Source: Desulfosarcina sp. (GTDB taxonomy: Bacteria; Desulfobacterota; Desulfobacteria; Desulfobacterales; Desulfosarcinaceae). Taken from it: 64,000 bases of DNA. Of this stretch, positions 43,609 to 50,615 are shown one piece after another (position 1 is the first letter of the stretch; each line of letters starts with the position of its first letter). Location: positions 1 through 64,000 of the forward strand of contig JABZFO010000048.1 of assembly GCA_014237405.1 (NCBI GenBank), given 5' to 3'. The notes beneath the pieces are model-generated. The model was not told the DNA's origin. It did no database searches and saw only the letters and a list, made by a program, of their open reading frames with translations. The position numbers were made by a program, and so were the translations under genes.

Positions 43609-44460
43609 TTGAAACCGACCCGGAAAAATCGATTCAGAAAAAACAGGGAAGTCCGGCGGGCCCCGTTTCGGGACCGGGCCGTTTTCACCGCCAAAGCGCT
43701 TTTGGGAGTACTGGCACTGGTGGCGGTCAGCGGAGCGTTTATCCTGGTGTATGACTATTTTACCCAGACTCGACATTTCCAGGCCCGCCATATTGTGGTG
43801 ACCGGGCAGCAGCGGATGAACCGCCGGCAGGTACTGAAGATTGCCGGCGTCGGACCGCAGACGAATATCCTGTCCGTGAACCTGACGACTACCCGTAAGC
43901 GACTGCTGGCCGACCCATGGATCGCCGACGTGGCGGTCAGCCGGGAGATCCCGTCGGGGCTGCGAATTTACATCCAAGAAGAAGAGCCGCTGGCCATGCT
44001 GGACATGGGTGACGGTCATGGCTTTTTGATCAATATTGCCGGCGAGGTGTTTAAACGGGAGGATGGTTCGGACAGCAACGCCTTGCCACGGGTGCAGGGG
44101 CTGAATCATGCGGATCTGCCCGTTCCCGGAAAGCCTGCCACGATGGCATTCCAGGCCGTGATGACCCTATTCCGCCTGGCCGGCAAAAAGAACAGCCCGC
44201 TGCCCCTTTCCGGCATTCGCCGGATTCGTGTGGACCGCGAAATCGGAGCCACTGTATATATCGGCGAAGAAAACCGGGCTGTGAAGTTTGGATTCGGTCG
44301 CTATCGTGAAAAGTGTGAGGCGTTGGGTCACCTGATGGTCCGGTTGAGCAGGGACAACCGGCTGACCCGGTACCGGTCCATCGATCTTTTTGATGTCAAT
44401 CGAATCGTGATCACGCTGGCAACGGCCGGTCCATCCGGTTCGGATCGTGAGGAGGTGTAA
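43609..44460 (+). CDS. ftsQ: Cell division protein FtsQ
   Basis: A 283-residue bitopic protein: basic N-terminus, a transmembrane helix near residues 27-48, then a POTRA domain (H-I-V-V-T-G-Q-Q-R-M, L-L-A-D-P-W-I-A-D-V-A-V-S-R) and the FtsQ beta domain (L-R-I-Y-I-Q-E-E-E-P-L-A near 115). It scaffolds FtsL/FtsB. A TTG start at 43609 is required, since the next Met is inside the POTRA domain, and the repeat array lies directly before it. Confidence 0.88.
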   Translation: MKPTRKNRFRKNREVRRAPFRDRAVFTAKALLGVLALVAVSGAFILVYDYFTQTRHFQARHIVVTGQQRMNRRQVLKIAGVGPQTNILSVNLTTTRKRLLADPWIADVAVSREIPSGLRIYIQEEEPLAMLDMGDGHGFLINIAGEVFKREDGSDSNALPRVQGLNHADLPVPGKPATMAFQAVMTLFRLAGKKNSPLPLSGIRRIRVDREIGATVYIGEENRAVKFGFGRYREKCEALGHLMVRLSRDNRLTRYRSIDLFDVNRIVITLATAGPSGSDREEV

Positions 44461-44461
44461 G

Positions 44462-45649
44462 TTGCAGGGACCAAGAGAAGGAGCTATCGTCGTCGGCCTG
44501 GATATCGGGACCACCAAGATCTGCGCCGTGGTCGGCGAGGTGACGGGCCGCGAAATCAATATCATCGGTATCGGGACCCATCCATCCATCGGTCTGCGAA
44601 AGGGCGTGGTGGTCAACATCGAATCCACGGTGGAGTCCATCAAAAAGGCGGTGGAAGAGGCCGAATTGATGGCCGGTTGTGAGATTTCGTCGGTATACGC
44701 CGGGATTGCCGGCGGCCACATCACCGGCTTCAACAGCCGGGGAATCGTGGCCATCAAAGGGTCAGAAATCACCCAGCAGGATGTGGATCGGGTCATCGAT
44801 GCGGCTCGGGCCGTGGCCATTCCCATGGACCGGGAGGTGATCCACGTGCTGCCCCAGGAGTACATTGTGGACGATCAGATCGGCATTCAGAACCCGGTGG
44901 GCATGGCGGGTGTCCGCCTCGAGGCCAAAATCCACATCGTTACCGGTGCGGTCACTTCGGCTCACAACATCGTCAAGTGCGCCAACCGGGCCGGGCTGGA
45001 TGTATGCGACATCGTTTTAGAGAGCCTGGCCTCGGGCGAAGCGGTGCTTACCGAGGAGGAGAAACAGCTGGGCACCTGCCTGATTGACCTGGGGGGTGGC
45101 ACCAGCGATCTTGCCATTTTCTTGGGTAAGAACATCAAGCACACCTTCGTGCTGGCCCTGGGGGGCGACAACCTCACTAATGATATCGCCATTGGCGTGC
45201 GGGCCCCCTTGAACGAGGCGGAGCGAATCAAGTGCAAATACGGCACTTGCGACGGGGCTTCCATCAGTCCAGATGAAACCATCGAGGTGCCGGGTATGGG
45301 CGGCCGCCAGCCCCGCAAGCTTCCCCGCCAGATTTTAGGAGAAATCCTGGAGCCGCGCATGGAGGAGATATTCACCCTGCTCCAGCGGGAGATCTACCGC
45401 GCCGGCATGGAAAACATGATCGCCTCGGGGATAGTCCTTTCCGGGGGTACGGCCCTCCTGGAGGGCACCATCGATATCGCCGAGGCCATCTTCGGCGTTC
45501 CCACGCGCATGGGCAAACCGCGGGGCATCGGCGGCCTCACCGACGTGGTGAACAATCCCATGTATGCCACCGGTGTGGGGCTGGTCATCTACGGTGCCAA
45601 AAAGGAGCCGGAGAAAAAGGGGAATGGCTGCCGTCTTTCGGAAAAATGA
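44462..45649 (+). CDS. ftsA: Cell division protein FtsA
   Basis: A 395-residue actin-like protein that tethers FtsZ to the membrane: V-G-L-D-I-G-T-T-K near residue 12 (phosphate 1), the 1C domain in the middle, D-L-G-G-G-T-S-D near 203 (phosphate 2), and L-S-G-G-T-A-L near 325. The TTG at 44462 is chosen because AGGAGGT sits 5-6 bases before it. The protein ends in E-P-E-K-K-G-N-G-C-R-L-S-E-K without the amphipathic membrane-targeting helix expected at the C-terminus. Loss of sequence or a frame change near 45610-45645 is possible. Confidence 0.92.
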   Translation: MQGPREGAIVVGLDIGTTKICAVVGEVTGREINIIGIGTHPSIGLRKGVVVNIESTVESIKKAVEEAELMAGCEISSVYAGIAGGHITGFNSRGIVAIKGSEITQQDVDRVIDAARAVAIPMDREVIHVLPQEYIVDDQIGIQNPVGMAGVRLEAKIHIVTGAVTSAHNIVKCANRAGLDVCDIVLESLASGEAVLTEEEKQLGTCLIDLGGGTSDLAIFLGKNIKHTFVLALGGDNLTNDIAIGVRAPLNEAERIKCKYGTCDGASISPDETIEVPGMGGRQPRKLPRQILGEILEPRMEEIFTLLQREIYRAGMENMIASGIVLSGGTALLEGTIDIAEAIFGVPTRMGKPRGIGGLTDVVNNPMYATGVGLVIYGAKKEPEKKGNGCRLSEK

Positions 45650-45654
45650 CAATG

Positions 45655-45740
45655 GGTAAAAACGGATGGAGTTGTAAAAAGTTCCGGTTCAGACGGAACC
45701 GTCGAAACTGTAACCAAGGCGTACAGGCAAGCGCCACAAT
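45655..45740. repeat. Degenerate third copy of the dispersed repeat
   Basis: Between ftsA and ftsZ, GAGTTGTAAAAAGTTCCGGTTCAGACGG and a following AAGGCGTAC / AGGCAAGCG recall the ends of the 126-285 and 61430-61606 repeats, but with many differences and much of the core missing. It is probably an old, decayed copy. No promoter or gene is seen in this gap. Confidence 0.5.
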
Positions 45741-45766
45741 GGGCAACACAAGAAAAGGGGGAGATT

Positions 45767-46894
45767 ATGACTGGTATGTTTACGTATGTGGAAAGTGAAA
45801 GTTCGGCAAAAATCAAAGTGATTGGCGTAGGCGGGGCGGGAGGTAACGCGATCAATAACATGATCTTGAGCAATCTGCATGGCGTCAAGTTCATTTCTGC
45901 CAACACGGATGCCCAGTCCCTGGATGTGGCCCAGGCTGAAATGCGCATCCAGCTGGGGGTGGAGATCACCGAAGGCCTGGGCGCCGGCGCCAATCCCCAG
46001 GTGGGACGGGATGCAGCCCTGGAAAATGCGGAAATGATCAAGGACGCGTTGTCCGATTCCCACATGGTCTTCATTACCGCGGGCTTCGGCGGCGGCACGG
46101 GGACCGGTGCGGCGCCGGTGATTGCACGGCTGTGTAAGGAAATGGGCATTCTTACCGTGGCCGTGGTGACTCGACCGTTCTCTTTTGAGGGTAGAAAGCG
46201 GGCCAAGCAGGCCGAGGATGGCATCATCGAGTTGAAAAAAGCGGCGGACACGGTGATCACCATCCCCAATGACCGGCTGCGGGGGCTGGCCTCGAAGAAC
46301 GCCAAGATGGTGGATATGTTCAGAAAGGCAGACGAAATCCTGCTCCACTCGGTCAAGGGCATCACCGACCTGATTATGATGCCCGGCCTGGTAAACCTGG
46401 ACTTTGCCGACGTGAAGACCACCATGTCCCGGGCCGGTATGGCCATCATGGGTATCGGCAGTTCCAGCGGCGAAAACCGGGCGCTGGAAGCGGCTGAACG
46501 GGCCATCTCACACCCGCTGCTGGAAGACATCAACGAACGCATTTACAATGAGGTGGGCGACGATGCGGAGATCATCTGGGGCGCGGTCATCGACGACAGT
46601 GTGGGCGATGAGATGAGCGTCACCGTCATTGCCACCGGTATCGGCGAAAAGGAAAAGGAGAAGGAGAAGGAGGCGGTCCTGAAAGTGATGGACCCTACTT
46701 ACGGCGGTAAGGTGCGTGACATCACCCCGGCGGATCTGGCCCGTTCGTCGGAACTGGACGCACCCACTTTTATTCGCCGGCGGCAGGCCGTCAACGAAAG
46801 GCCGGCCAGTGAGCTCTACCGGGAGTACAAGGGGATTGTCATCGACAACGACGATCTAGACGTTCCCACTTTTTTAAGAAGAAAGGCGGACTAA
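45767..46894 (+). CDS. ftsZ: Cell division protein FtsZ
   Basis: A 375-residue tubulin-like GTPase forming the Z ring. The GTP motif G-F-G-G-G-T-G-T-G-A-A-P lies near residue 106, V-G-V-G-G-A-G-G-N-A near 20, the T7 loop N-L-D-F-A-D-V near 208, and the C-terminal D-V-P-T-F-L-R-R-K conserved peptide near the end binds FtsA and other partners. An AGGGGGAG precedes the ATG. A short Lys/Glu run (K-E-K-E-K-E-K-E) sits before the linker. Complete. Confidence 0.97.
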   Translation: MTGMFTYVESESSAKIKVIGVGGAGGNAINNMILSNLHGVKFISANTDAQSLDVAQAEMRIQLGVEITEGLGAGANPQVGRDAALENAEMIKDALSDSHMVFITAGFGGGTGTGAAPVIARLCKEMGILTVAVVTRPFSFEGRKRAKQAEDGIIELKKAADTVITIPNDRLRGLASKNAKMVDMFRKADEILLHSVKGITDLIMMPGLVNLDFADVKTTMSRAGMAIMGIGSSSGENRALEAAERAISHPLLEDINERIYNEVGDDAEIIWGAVIDDSVGDEMSVTVIATGIGEKEKEKEKEAVLKVMDPTYGGKVRDITPADLARSSELDAPTFIRRRQAVNERPASELYREYKGIVIDNDDLDVPTFLRRKAD

Positions 46895-46947
46895 CTCCGT
46901 GGCTGAATGATCCGGATCAGCTGGGACAACGTTGAATCAGAGGACGG

Positions 46948-47157
46948 ATGATGCAGCATTACCGATGTAGTGACCACTTGACCGGTGGTCGAAGGATTGG
47001 TGGCGATCGGCGGGGATATTCATATGCCTGCTGTATCCCCGAACGACGTAGCGGCGTGGAGCGCCGCAGAGAAAAAGTTCGCCGCCAGCAAAGCCGGAAT
47101 ACCGCGATGATGAAGGCGGTCGATGAGACCACCACAACCGAGCCGATACGATTCTGA
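46948..47157 (+). CDS. Small Arg-rich protein with P-E-R-R-S-G motif
   Basis: A 69-residue basic protein with G-D-R-R near residue 19 and P-E-R-R-S-G-V-E-R-R-R near 31. This arginine-pair pattern resembles the short R-R-x-x-x-R elements that precede PilZ domains, but no PilZ fold follows. It lies 50 bases after ftsZ and overlaps nothing. A weak GGACGG precedes the start. Support is modest and it could be chance. Confidence 0.4.
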   Translation: MMQHYRCSDHLTGGRRIGGDRRGYSYACCIPERRSGVERRREKVRRQQSRNTAMMKAVDETTTTEPIRF

Positions 47158-47203
47158 AACGCGATGGATTGACGGCCGATGCGGATAAAGATCTGCGTGA
47201 ACC

Positions 47204-48943
47204 ATGGCAACAGGATCTCAACAGGCACCCAGAGGGCGTGCGGCGGCTGAACGCGGCGTTATCCGAAAGCCTGCCGCCGGCCGTATTCGCGTGGCCCTGG
47301 TCTACCCCAACCTTTACCATGTGGGGATGTCCAACCTGGGGTTCCAGACCGTATACCGGCTCATCAACGATATCGACCATGTGGTTTGTGAACGGGCTTT
47401 TTTACCGGAACAGGATGGCGGTAGAATCCACCGGGTGCTGACGGTCGAGTCCCAGACGCCCATCGAAGACTTCGACATCATTGCCTTTTCGATTTCCTAC
47501 GAGAACGATGCACCCGCCGTGCTTTCCATCCTGGAAACAGCAGGACTCCCCCTGCCGGCCGCCCAGCGTGGCGCCACTCCCCCCCTTGTGCTGGCAGGGG
47601 GAGTCTTCTGTTTTCTCAACCCTGAACCGTTGGCCCCGTTCATCGATGCCTTCCTGCTGGGGGAGGCCGAGGTTCTGGTATCTGGTTTTTTTCAGATCTT
47701 TGATCCATCGGTCGAAAAGCAGGCAATTCTGCTGACCCTGGCCCGCCACGTTGCTGGCCTATACGTTCCTGCCCTCTACCGCCCCCGGTATCATGAAGAC
47801 GGCACCCTGGCTGAGGTTGAGCCGCTGGCGGATGTGCCTGCCTCCGTCAGACGGCTGATGGTGCCGGATTTGTCGGACCTGCCAACGGCCAGCACCATTT
47901 TAACCCCGGACACTACCTTTGACGACACCTACCTCATCGAGGTTTCCCGGGGGTGCCCCCATGGGTGCCGCTTCTGCAGCGCCGGATATGTCTATCGGCC
48001 ACCGAGGTTCCGCCCCTTTAGCCTGCTTGACCGTCAGGTGGACGATGGGTGCGCACTGACCGACCACATCGGCCTGGTGGGGGCCGCCGTTTCCGACCTG
48101 CCGGGCATACGTGAACTGTGCGGCAAAGATCGGGGCCGTGAGGTCCGGTTCTCTTTCAGCAGTCTGCGGGCCGACGCCCTGGACGGCCCGCTGGTCGAGG
48201 CGCTCAAAAAAAGTCGGGTGAAGACCGCCACCATCGCCCCGGATGCCGGCTCGGAGCGCATGCGCCGGGTGATCAACAAGGGGATCACTGAAGACCACGT
48301 GGTCGTTGCCGCCGAAACCCTGGTGGCCGCCGGCATCCCCAACCTGAAGGTCTATTTCATGATCGGCCTGCCCACGGAAACCGAGGCCGATGTGGCGGCC
48401 ATTGTGGATCTGGTGAAGCAGATCAAACACCGCTTTCTCAGAACCAGCCGGGGCAAGGGGCGCATCGGTGAAATCACCGTGAGCATCAGTTCCTTCGTCC
48501 CCAAACCATTTACACCATTTCAGTGGGTGTCCATGGACGAGGTGAAGAGCCTTAAGAACAAAATCAGGATGGTGAGGACGGGATTGAAAAAAACGGCCAA
48601 TGTGCGGGTACACGCAGATCTGCCCCGGTGGGCCTACCTGCAGGGGCTGATCGCCCGGGGGGACCGGCAGGTGGCGGACATCCTGATGCTGGGCCACAAA
48701 AACAGGGGCAACTGGCCCCAGACCTTCAAGGCCTCACCGGTCAACCCCCACTTTTACGTTCACCGTGAACGGGATCCCGATGAGCTGTTTCCCTGGGACT
48801 TCATCGACCAGGGTATCGACAAATCCTACCTGTTGAAAGAGTACCGCCGGGCGTTGGCCGGCCGGACCTCCGCCCCCTGCCCCGTTGATCCGTCGAAATG
48901 CAGCATCTGCGGGGTATGCGAAGGAAAACCCGACGCACGTTGA
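47204..48943 (+). CDS. B12-binding-type radical SAM protein
   Basis: A 579-residue radical SAM protein. The N-terminal half has a B12-domain-like alpha/beta fold (V-A-L-V-Y-P-N-L-Y near residue 30). The cluster-binding C-x-x-x-C-x-x-C motif is C-P-H-G-C-R-F-C near 250, followed by the Gly-rich segment. A C-terminal C-P-V-D-P-S-K-C-S-I-C-G-V-C adds a cysteine cluster. It would cleave SAM to a 5'-deoxyadenosyl radical; the substrate is unknown. The mature family is of TIGR-type B12/radical SAM proteins, common in anaerobes. Confidence 0.88.
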   Translation: MATGSQQAPRGRAAAERGVIRKPAAGRIRVALVYPNLYHVGMSNLGFQTVYRLINDIDHVVCERAFLPEQDGGRIHRVLTVESQTPIEDFDIIAFSISYENDAPAVLSILETAGLPLPAAQRGATPPLVLAGGVFCFLNPEPLAPFIDAFLLGEAEVLVSGFFQIFDPSVEKQAILLTLARHVAGLYVPALYRPRYHEDGTLAEVEPLADVPASVRRLMVPDLSDLPTASTILTPDTTFDDTYLIEVSRGCPHGCRFCSAGYVYRPPRFRPFSLLDRQVDDGCALTDHIGLVGAAVSDLPGIRELCGKDRGREVRFSFSSLRADALDGPLVEALKKSRVKTATIAPDAGSERMRRVINKGITEDHVVVAAETLVAAGIPNLKVYFMIGLPTETEADVAAIVDLVKQIKHRFLRTSRGKGRIGEITVSISSFVPKPFTPFQWVSMDEVKSLKNKIRMVRTGLKKTANVRVHADLPRWAYLQGLIARGDRQVADILMLGHKNRGNWPQTFKASPVNPHFYVHRERDPDELFPWDFIDQGIDKSYLLKEYRRALAGRTSAPCPVDPSKCSICGVCEGKPDAR

Positions 48944-48990
48944 GTCCCCATGTAATTCCGTTTAACTCCAAAAGAATTACATTGCAGAAT

Positions 48991-49069
48991 AAGCTAAAAA
49001 ATACTCGACAGGATAAGCTAAATTTAGTACCGCAACAAAAGCTAATAGTTGCACAATACAAAAAGCTAA
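48991..49069 (+). promoter_or_regulatory. Four AAGCTAA iterons at exact 24-bp spacing
   Basis: AAGCTAA occurs at 48991, 49015, 49039 and 49063, each exactly 24 bp after the last; intervening bases differ. The last copy ends 16 bases before the Fic start codon. Such regularly spaced direct repeats suggest cooperative binding of a regulator, plausibly the N-terminal domain of the Fic protein itself. The same repeats also give Lys-Leu every eight residues in a short ORF (48898-49080), which I take as a by-product. Confidence 0.65.
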
Positions 49070-49085
49070 CGAAAGAATAAGAGCG

Positions 49086-50615
49086 ATGGCTACCCCAAAG
49101 GAAAAACTGGCCAAATCCCTTGAGGTGCTGCAGACTTTACAAAAGAACGGTGTCGTCGCTGTGCGTTCATACGACCTGACCCGGACACATCGTGAACGCC
49201 TAATCAAGAACGGCTTCTTGATAGAGGTTATGAAGGGCTGGTATATTCCTGTCCGTCCGGACGATGTCACGGGTGATAGCACGACGTGGTACGCTTCGTA
49301 TTGGGGCTTTTGTGCAGTCTATTTGAAGGCGCGTTTTGGGATGAATTGGAGCCTTTCTCCTGAGCAGTCACTATTGCTGCATGTTGGGAACATGAGGGTC
49401 CCACGCCAATTGCTTGTACGTTCACCGAAGGCCCGCAACAAGGTCACAGCACTACTGCATGACACGTCGTTATTCGATACGCGTGCGGCTCTCCCCAAGG
49501 CTGGACAGGTTGCAGAGAAGGACGGCCTACGTCTGTTCTCTATACCTGCGGGCCTGGTGAGCTGCGGATCTGGATTCTTTCTACAGAACGCAACGGACGC
49601 TCGCGCGGTGTTGGCTATGGTGAGCGATGCATCTGATGTGCTTGCATTGCTTCTGGAAGGTGGGCGAACCAAAGTTGCCGGCCGTCTTGCAGGTGCATTC
49701 CGAAATATCGGACGAGACCGTATTGCCGATGATATTGTCAAAACAATGCAAACTGCAGACTATGACATTCGGGAAAAAGATCCATTCGAAAACGCATTGA
49801 ACCTGATCCTGCCAGCGCGCGAACAGTCGCCGTATGTGAACCGTATTCGCCTCATGTGGCAACAGATGCGAGAACCCATCCTCAAGCAATTTCCTCCCGT
49901 TCCTGACCAACCACCCGACACCGTTGCCTATCTTAATGCAGCCGATGACATTTACGTTATGGACGCTTATCACTCGTTGTCCATTGAAGGCTACCGGGTC
50001 AGCCCTGAACTGATCGAACGGATCCGCATTGGCGATTGGGATCCGGAAAAAAAAGAAAATGACCGCGAGCATCGTAATGCTTTAGCTGCGCGAGGGTACT
50101 GGCAGGCCTATCAGGCAGTCCGCGAAAGCGTACGCAAGGTACTATCGGGGGAAAATCCTGGAACAGTCAGCGGTGATGATCACGGTGACTGGTACCGTGA
50201 AATGTTTGGACCCAGCATAACAGCCGGCCTCTTGCGGACGGCGGACCTTGCCGGCTACCGAAGCGGTCAAGTATATATTCGCCGCTCAATGCATGTACCA
50301 CCACGTTATGAAGCAGTGCGAGATTGCATGCCGGCATTCTTTGATTTATTGAGAGAAGAACCGGAGTCATCCGTGCGTGTTGTTCTGGGGCACTTCGTGT
50401 TCGTATATATCCATCCGTACATGGATGGTAATGGCCGTATTGGACGATTTCTTATGAACGTGATGCTGGCTGCGGGTGGGTACTCCTGGACCGTGATTCC
50501 ACTGGAAAAGCGAGGCGACTACATGGCTGCGTTGGAATGCGGCAGTGTGGAACAGGATATTACGCCGTTGGCGATTTTTCTTGGGCGGCTCGTATCTGAT
50601 AGTTTAGTAACATAA
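49086..50615 (+). CDS. Class II Fic protein with N-terminal AbiEi-like wHTH domain
   Basis: A 509-residue protein. Residues 15-60 resemble a winged-helix AbiEi/COG5340-type segment (G-V-V-A-V-R-S, R-L-I-K-N-G-F-L-I-E-V-M-K-G-W-Y). The C-terminal half is a Fic AMP-transferase: the inhibitory [ST]-x-x-x-E-[GN] motif S-L-S-I-E-G near 298, and the catalytic H-P-Y-M-D-G-N-G-R-I-G-R near 439. Fic enzymes attach AMP to Tyr, Ser or Thr; class II proteins hold themselves off via the N-terminal motif. The upstream iterons suggest autoregulation, toxin-antitoxin style. The region is richer in AT than its neighbours, consistent with transfer. Confidence 0.88.
   Translation: MATPKEKLAKSLEVLQTLQKNGVVAVRSYDLTRTHRERLIKNGFLIEVMKGWYIPVRPDDVTGDSTTWYASYWGFCAVYLKARFGMNWSLSPEQSLLLHVGNMRVPRQLLVRSPKARNKVTALLHDTSLFDTRAALPKAGQVAEKDGLRLFSIPAGLVSCGSGFFLQNATDARAVLAMVSDASDVLALLLEGGRTKVAGRLAGAFRNIGRDRIADDIVKTMQTADYDIREKDPFENALNLILPAREQSPYVNRIRLMWQQMREPILKQFPPVPDQPPDTVAYLNAADDIYVMDAYHSLSIEGYRVSPELIERIRIGDWDPEKKENDREHRNALAARGYWQAYQAVRESVRKVLSGENPGTVSGDDHGDWYREMFGPSITAGLLRTADLAGYRSGQVYIRRSMHVPPRYEAVRDCMPAFFDLLREEPESSVRVVLGHFVFVYIHPYMDGNGRIGRFLMNVMLAAGGYSWTVIPLEKRGDYMAALECGSVEQDITPLAIFLGRLVSDSLVT

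Follow-up and report, generated by a model that had tools for sequence, protein, structure and literature searches.

A 24-bp direct-repeat array in front of a Fic gene of Desulfosarcina sp., the probable operator of a Fic protein with an AbiEi-like module

Here we report a direct-repeat array, four AAGCTAA boxes at 24-bp intervals, in front of a Fic gene in the genome of Desulfosarcina sp. (GenBank assembly GCA_014237405.1, contig JABZFO010000048.1, positions 1 to 64,000 of the forward strand; this whole 64,000-nt stretch is called the window below). The Fic protein, in which a predicted AbiEi-like module precedes the Fic domain, very probably reads the array in front of its own gene, as judged from the co-variation of box letters and protein residues among its relatives, and negative autoregulation is the best reading of this co-variation together with the position of promoter-like elements. 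In the model that we prefer (probability about 0.83), the array serves the Fic gene as operator: head-to-tail protomers, one per repeat unit, would lie over the promoter, repress their own gene and keep an autoinhibited enzyme scarce.

Results

The boxes lie on the plus strand at positions 48991, 49015, 49039 and 49063 (spacing 24, 24 and 24 bp), and the last one ends at 49069, which leaves a gap of 16 bases before the start codon of the Fic gene (ATG at 49086). This is the arrangement described by a first-pass annotation of the window, and its judgement that such a register is unlikely to arise by chance was upheld: the heptamer itself is not rare in the window (5 found, 3.22 expected), and four equally spaced identical 7-mers appeared in 0 of 5000 dinucleotide shuffles of the 142-nt upstream region (spacings 10 to 60). 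No further exact box pair with 24-bp spacing was found elsewhere in the 4.9 Mb assembly (reversed-pattern control, 1).

Relatives of the gene were taken from the best 80 of 482 matches of a genome-contig search, two viral contigs, whole-genome searches and three plasmid loci; phage records contained no relative at E 1e-10, and the viral contigs yielded two. The upstream regions were scored for self-match at lags 8 to 59. In a first set of 141 readable regions, the window included, the best lag was 24 in 130, 48 in 8, 46 in 2 and 31 in 1, with mean scores of 25.2 at lag 24, 16.3 at lag 48 and 3.7 to 5.5 at other lags. Over all loci, again with the window, 156 of 176 had lag 24 as best lag and a score of at least 12; the 20 others comprised 11 with best lag 48, 3 with lag 24 at a lower score and 6 with other lags. 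Conservation of the boxes in orthologous loci, on which the first-pass annotation had staked its proposal, was thus found, and lag 24 remained best down to 38% protein identity (L138). Named taxa among the relatives include Desulfobacterales, Gamma-, Alpha-, Beta- and Zetaproteobacteria, Acidobacteria and Bacteroides. A 24-bp array was present in 1 of 333 control windows around other Fic genes (13 Fic matches in five genomes) and in 1 of 855 elsewhere upstream. A chance origin of the array was rejected on the shuffles, the assembly scan and this family-wide period relative to the control windows.

The neighbours of the gene in the window (FtsA, FtsZ, a radical-SAM protein, a lipoprotein and GDPD) were found at 0 of 178 other loci at E 1e-5 within short flanks (158 of 175 loci have at least 1000 nt upstream, and only 61 have the 2200 nt at which FtsZ would begin to appear). 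As none of these neighbours was found there, the array seems to travel with the Fic gene. The box letters vary between loci and are mostly uniform within one (AAGCTAA, AAGCGAA, AACCTAA, AAACTAA, AAGATAA, AAACTTG, AAGCTTG and others), as would follow if specificity differed from protein to protein. On a plasmid of Saccharobesus litoralis (L176), four AAGCTAA boxes stand 23 bp apart, by eye, before position 1501; judging from this locus, the period of the array can differ by one base.

Each repeat unit spans 24 bp and has the family consensus ACAACACAATAAGCTAATAATAGT (columns 0-23 of the aligned units), in which the box occupies columns 10-16. The left half is written ACARCA, with A or G common at its third and fourth base and C or T at the seventh (ACARCAY), and the most informative columns are 4, 8, 10 and 13 (1.25-1.61 bits). 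A left half scoring more than 3 bits precedes 53% of 121 first and 79% of 357 inner boxes and follows only 10% of 121 last boxes; one unit further upstream the figure is 6% of 119. Arrays, which reach up to 6 units, thus mostly open with a left half and close with a box, and from these scores at the array ends a single site most likely consists of a left half, 4 bp and a box.

For the comparison of arrays with proteins, 136 of the 141 loci were kept at first, loci with an array score below 8 or a protein shorter than 300 residues being dropped; entries L001-L003 and L140 (the window itself) and L021, L118 and L134 (no usable start) had been left out before counting. A non-redundant set was obtained by cutting 152 entries (score at least 8, at least 450 residues) to 122 at 93% identity, a filter that also removes loci that appear to duplicate one record (e.g. 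L110 and L013); L156, which is the same place as L154, is outside the 122 loci. Shuffle-corrected mutual information was calculated between each column of the unit and each column of the protein alignment. Box letter 3 tracked R117 (0.64) and K119 (0.47), followed by V120 (0.28), among 478 positions in the 122 loci. The same two residues led among 100 loci below 90% identity (0.62 and 0.48; next 0.25) and among 67 loci below 75% identity (0.51 and 0.58; next 0.22). The other protein positions serve as an internal control, because they share the same history. Weaker links were obtained between box letter 5 and residues 84, 119 and 83 and between letter 7 and residue 134, and letter 6 had many near-equal candidates, residue 112 among them. 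Winged-helix residues appear as weaker entries (K5 with letter 3, I46 and I54 with letter 5, V24 with letter 6); a reading of the box by the winged helix alone was rejected, as no residue of 1-60 leads in columns 12-16.

The link at letter 3 takes the form of a code. Among the first 136 loci, all 61 with R117 have G; where R117 is absent, C accompanies K119 in 32 of 34, A accompanies N119 in 27 of 30 and G accompanies H119 in 5 of 5. The 122 non-redundant loci combine training and held-out loci; with the register set under a masked box, 107 of the 111 called loci agree (R117 with G 48/48, H119 with G 4/4, K119 with C 25/26, N119 with A 30/33), and the best of 10000 label shuffles reached 59 of 111. 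Counted by unit, the expected letter stands in 171 of 181 for R117 (G), 125 of 135 for N119 (A), 102 of 109 for K119 (C) and 16 of 16 for H119 (G). The N-A rule and the H-G rule also reappear among divergent CTTG-type loci. R-G and N-A are classic pairs of side chain and base, and the pairing of K with C may reflect a contact between K and the G on the opposite strand. The code has further states, to judge from the aligned loci; box letter 3 is T (L108, L174) or C (L160) in Q119 loci and C in GM and GS loci (L158, L161). The earlier proposal that the Fic protein may read its own array is therefore favoured by the co-variation, but the reading site would lie at residues 117 and 119 in the second domain and not within residues 1-80, where the first-pass annotation had looked for it.

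The rule for letter 3 (rule A) was fixed while the arrays of the further loci were still unread. Among the first 27 held-out loci, some of them near-identical and L156 included, rule A, applied with the register set under masked box columns 12-16, called 20 and was right in 20 of 20, with no call for 7. Among the next 8 it gave a letter in 6 (3 right, 1 wrong, 2 without a 24-bp array) and no call in 2, so that it was right in 23 of 24 scorable loci. After L165 (100% identical to the training locus L107) and L167 (98% identical to L145) had been left out as non-independent and the rest grouped at about 90% identity, 11 of 12 scorable held-out groups were predicted correctly, with identities of 53-88% to the nearest training locus, the 88% belonging to one group (L157). 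Two companion rules, fixed together with rule A, were rejected on the first 27 held-out loci: rule B (K84 gives G at box letter 5, otherwise T) failed in L159, L160, L165, L166, L167, L169, L172, L173 and L174, and rule C (R112 gives A at box letter 6, otherwise T) in L167, L170, L171, L173 and L174.

A quick maximum-likelihood tree was built from residues 240-509 only. It requires a minimum of 28 changes of box letter 3 and of 23 changes of the code class. Well-supported branches provide 7 independent pairs for G versus not G, of which 6.7 on average are concordant and 0 opposite (median p 0.016), 6 independent pairs for A (p 0.031) and 3 for C, which are too few.

Promoter-like elements of the form T[CT]GACA-N17 plus a TACAAC-like hexamer were found in 40 of 122 upstream regions (4 in reversed and 0 in reverse-complemented sequences), and a looser form in 56 (6 and 1, respectively). 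In all 40 loci with the strict form, the -35 element starts at unit column 0, so the -10 element begins one base ahead of the next unit; the 24-bp period is nearly equal to the 23-bp distance between the two elements. It is this position of the elements in neighbouring repeats that makes negative autoregulation the best reading.

Class II Fic proteins carry the catalytic motif HPFx[D/N]GNGRxxR and, N-terminal of the Fic core, the inhibitory motif [S/T]xxxE[G/N]. The catalytic motif of the protein in the window, HPYMDGNGRIGR, follows this pattern except that its third residue is Y where the pattern has F, the Pfam Fic match is above the cut-off, and an inhibitory motif stands ahead of the core (Table 1). 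A similar form of the catalytic motif is given in excerpts of PMC2686095. The model of the full protein (mean predicted local distance difference test score, pLDDT, 89.7) matches Fic structures, FICD first. As the search with the whole protein gave Fic structures among the matches listed, residues 1-240 were modelled alone (pLDDT 92.9); in the Protein Data Bank (PDB), their only Foldseek matches below E 0.001 were 1zel_A (Rv2827c, 9.5e-5) and 6y8q_A (AbiEi, 4.4e-4), and VIA gave Z scores of 10.8 over 223 residues and 8.7 over 173 residues for the two. The second domain also matches nucleotidyltransferase folds, e.g. MenT1 (VIA Z 9.1), and no family was excluded on the basis of the VIA list. 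Residues 1-240 are thus predicted to fold like a whole AbiEi antitoxin, with a winged helix and a nucleotidyltransferase-like domain; the AbiEi-like winged-helix N-terminus of the first-pass annotation is borne out by this predicted fold, and the likeness extends to the whole antitoxin. In the model, residues 117 and 119, the best candidates for specificity, sit in the second domain, outside the winged helix, and residues 84, 112 and 134, which lie at or just past the ends of a neighbouring helix and strands, would share one sheet edge with each other.

No sequence match to AbiEi was obtained in Pfam or NCBIfam at E 1 for 43 sequences, or among PDB sequences. For residues 1-240 (49086-49805), none of the 43 sequences matched a relevant model in Pfam or NCBIfam despite the clear predicted fold, and a family model for this region seems to be missing from both databases. 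At four loci (L154, L137, L164 and L139) the match to the Fic family is distributed over more than one frame or piece; L154 and L137 share the position of the break, about residues 269-273, between the AbiEi-like and the Fic part.

Table 1. Features of the array and the Fic gene in the window
Feature	Position	Strand	Description	Basis
Operator unit 1 (candidate)	48981..49004	+	left half ATTGCA 48981-48986, box AAGCTAA 48991-48997	sequence; register from family consensus
Operator unit 2 (candidate)	49005..49028	+	left half TCGACA 49005-49010 (also putative -35), box 49015-49021	sequence; register from family consensus; promoter motif scan
Operator unit 3 (candidate)	49029..49052	+	left half ACCGCA 49029-49034, box 49039-49045	sequence; register from family consensus
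Operator unit 4 (candidate)	49053..49076	+	left half ACAATA 49053-49058, box 49063-49069	sequence; register from family consensus
Putative sigma-70-like promoter, TCGACA-N17-TACCGC	49005..49033	+	inside units 2 and 3; -35 49005-49010, -10 49028-49033	relatives with TCGACA-N17-TACAAC
Fic gene, 509 amino acids	49086..50615	+	predicted AbiEi-like module fused to Fic domain	open reading frame, Pfam, model, Foldseek
AbiEi-like module (predicted), residues 1-230	49086..49775	+	winged helix about 1-60, nucleotidyltransferase-like domain about 65-225	AF2 model m29551cbd9228; Foldseek and VIA matches 1zel, 6y8q
Beta-hairpin (predicted), residues 113-119 (SPKARNK), with R117 and K119	49422..49442	+	between strands 108-112 and 119-122	co-variation with box letter 3
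Inhibitory motif S297-x-x-x-E301-G302	49974..49991	+	ahead of Fic core, class II arrangement	S297, E301, G302 invariant in 52 aligned sequences (window included)
Fic catalytic motif HPYMDGNGRIGR, residues 443-454	50412..50447	+		Pfam Fic E 7.2e-12; H443, D447, G448, N449, G450, R451, R454 invariant in 52 sequences

The Fic gene is located two genes after ftsZ (window positions 44447-49086). FtsZ is a published AMPylation target of the Fic protein CccR (excerpts of PMC9755527); ftsZ as a functional partner was rejected, as it was found beside none of the relatives (178 other loci, short flanks). No gene for a nucleotidyltransferase toxin was seen beside the Fic gene in the window, which has a radical-SAM gene upstream and an open reading frame for a BamE-like lipoprotein downstream, and no neighbour is so named in 28 plasmid regions (two of them unannotated, flanks of 1.5 kb, some neighbours hypothetical). 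At two plasmid loci (L174, L179) the gene follows a TraH family gene and precedes traM, with a small helix-turn-helix gene between, and an Aminobacter plasmid (L163, 104-3039) carries two tandem annotated Fic family genes, the second of which is a member of the present family.

Discussion

In the proposed model, each 24-bp unit would be one asymmetric site for one protomer of the Fic protein. The most likely partner of the conserved left half ACARCA is the well-conserved winged helix, a contact deduced indirectly because no winged-helix residue leads the co-variation, and the beta-hairpin of the nucleotidyltransferase-like domain would read the box, with R117 and K119 setting its third letter. 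On direct repeats the protomers would align head to tail and, with neighbouring sites turned by about 100 degrees (at 10.5 bp per turn), the assembly would wind round the DNA. It would cover the promoter, with its -35 element in the left half of one unit and its -10 element in that of the next, and the bound protomers would shut off their own gene, so that an autoinhibited AMPylating enzyme is kept scarce. Binding itself, one protomer per unit, the assignment of domains to halves of the site and repression are the steps that we infer. A bolder version, in which the nucleotidyltransferase-like domain is a base-reading head with a two-residue code (R/H-G, N-A, K-C) and head-to-tail polymers let the copy number of the operator gate both expression and AMPylation, is a tentative proposal that we consider doubtful as a whole.

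Several results weigh against the autorepression model. Its -10 element in the window, TACCGC, is poor, a standard promoter scan of the window does not call this promoter, and the strict promoter form is present in only 40 of 122 loci. For none of the five box columns (12-16) does a winged-helix position (1-60) lead. Six relatives have a best lag that is neither 24 nor 48 (L088, L146, L147, L170, L176 and L182). The code is contradicted in 4 of 111 loci, namely L047 (GK, box GATAA), L061 and L075 (mixed A/G arrays) and L085 (register unsure). In the held-out loci, L178 is a miss as scored, although a register shift of one base (box ACTTG) would fit by eye, and L176 and L182 lack a 24-bp array by the threshold, the 23-bp AAGCTAA boxes of L176 being compatible by eye; rules B and C, which tie box letters 5 and 6 to residues 84 and 112, performed badly. 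The independent pairs on supported branches of the tree are few.

The strongest competing explanation accepts that the Fic protein reads the array and assigns it another main role: activation, the counting of operator copies (e.g. on an incoming plasmid or phage), or an inactive DNA-bound store that is released to AMPylate. The same co-variation would fit such roles, as would arrays of up to 6 units, the fusion of an enzyme to a DNA reader and the finding that 42 of 79 plasmid records with the module are typed conjugative. The promoter-like elements inside the array, however, point to repression, the fold relatives AbiEi and Rv2827c autorepress (excerpts of PMC7319586), and the regulatory and toxic activities of CccR are called independent by its authors (excerpts of PMC9755527). 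We therefore regard a main role other than repression as improbable.

A separate chromosomal regulator that binds the array, with the Fic gene merely placed behind it, would be a common arrangement. It is very hard to reconcile with an array that accompanies the Fic gene in many taxa, at loci where the neighbours from the window were not found, with box letters that follow two Fic residues above 476 other positions, and with a rule that predicted unseen loci. A scan of the host genome for left half plus box, allowing up to 2 mismatches, found 7 sites, of which two belong to the array and three others are one repeated sequence; the reversed control gave 2. Additional sites for such a regulator are not conspicuous, and a regulon beyond the Fic gene is not convincing either. 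That the repeats are coding (24 nt equal 8 codons) or act as RNA was rejected as the least credible possibility: of 108 arrays, 47 keep the frame starting with the box open and 61 close it, the ATG follows the last box in each of the three phases (51, 34 and 23), and co-variation of letters with the protein would be unexpected.

The array provides a residue-to-base code for a probable AbiEi-like repressor; the code was obtained from natural variation, passed on unseen loci and is directly testable. If the autorepression model holds, these Fic enzymes, many of them plasmid-borne, would gain a built-in, co-evolving regulator, which may explain how an AMPylating enzyme is restrained without a separate antitoxin gene. 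Confirmation of the hairpin would show a nucleotidyltransferase-like fold turned sequence reader and would bear on DNA recognition by full-length AbiEi. No description of the operator, the AbiEi-Fic fusion or the code was found in the titles and abstract starts of openly licensed PubMed Central articles, among the matches listed, and the term 'AbiE' is absent from the main text, as excerpted, of a 2009 survey of toxin-antitoxin families (PMC2701414).

Among known systems, the array shares direct repeats in constant register with replication iterons, but it precedes a Fic gene and no replication gene is among the neighbouring genes in the window. Replication iterons were rejected for this reason; of the 'iteron operator' of the first-pass annotation, the direct-repeat array before the Fic gene stands and the word iteron in its replication sense does not. 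The protein resembles class II Fic enzymes and FICD in its Fic motif and the inhibitory S-x-x-x-E-G ahead of the core. FICD structures are the best PDB matches of the whole protein and of the model, and the SoFic profile of PADLOC matches at E 3.7e-20, but these similarities to FICD, SoFic and PADLOC cover the Fic part only (residues about 287-506) and not the first 230 residues.

CccR of Yersinia pseudotuberculosis is a Fic protein that represses its own gene via an inverted repeat (excerpts of PMC9755527). The two systems would have in common a Fic enzyme and an autorepressor in one protein, repression being predicted here, but CccR uses a C-terminal DNA-binding domain and an inverted-repeat operator, whereas the protein in the window has a predicted N-terminal AbiEi-like module and direct repeats.

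AbiEi of Streptococcus agalactiae and Rv2827c are antitoxin-repressors of type IV toxin-antitoxin pairs and autorepressors with 23-bp sites; AbiEi monomers bind 23-bp inverted repeats at the promoter and repress it, and the full-length protein is required for autoregulation (excerpts of PMC7319586 and PMC3985639). The predicted fold of residues 1-240 shares their winged helix and nucleotidyltransferase-like domain. As a lead, the published AbiEi repeat ends in GCAACA (excerpts of PMC3985639), which resembles the left half ACARCA, and the two are possibly the same winged-helix half-site. In contrast to AbiEi, the module described here has no family match at the sequence level, is fused to a Fic enzyme, is associated with 24-bp direct instead of 23-bp inverted repeats, and displays a visible residue-to-base code.
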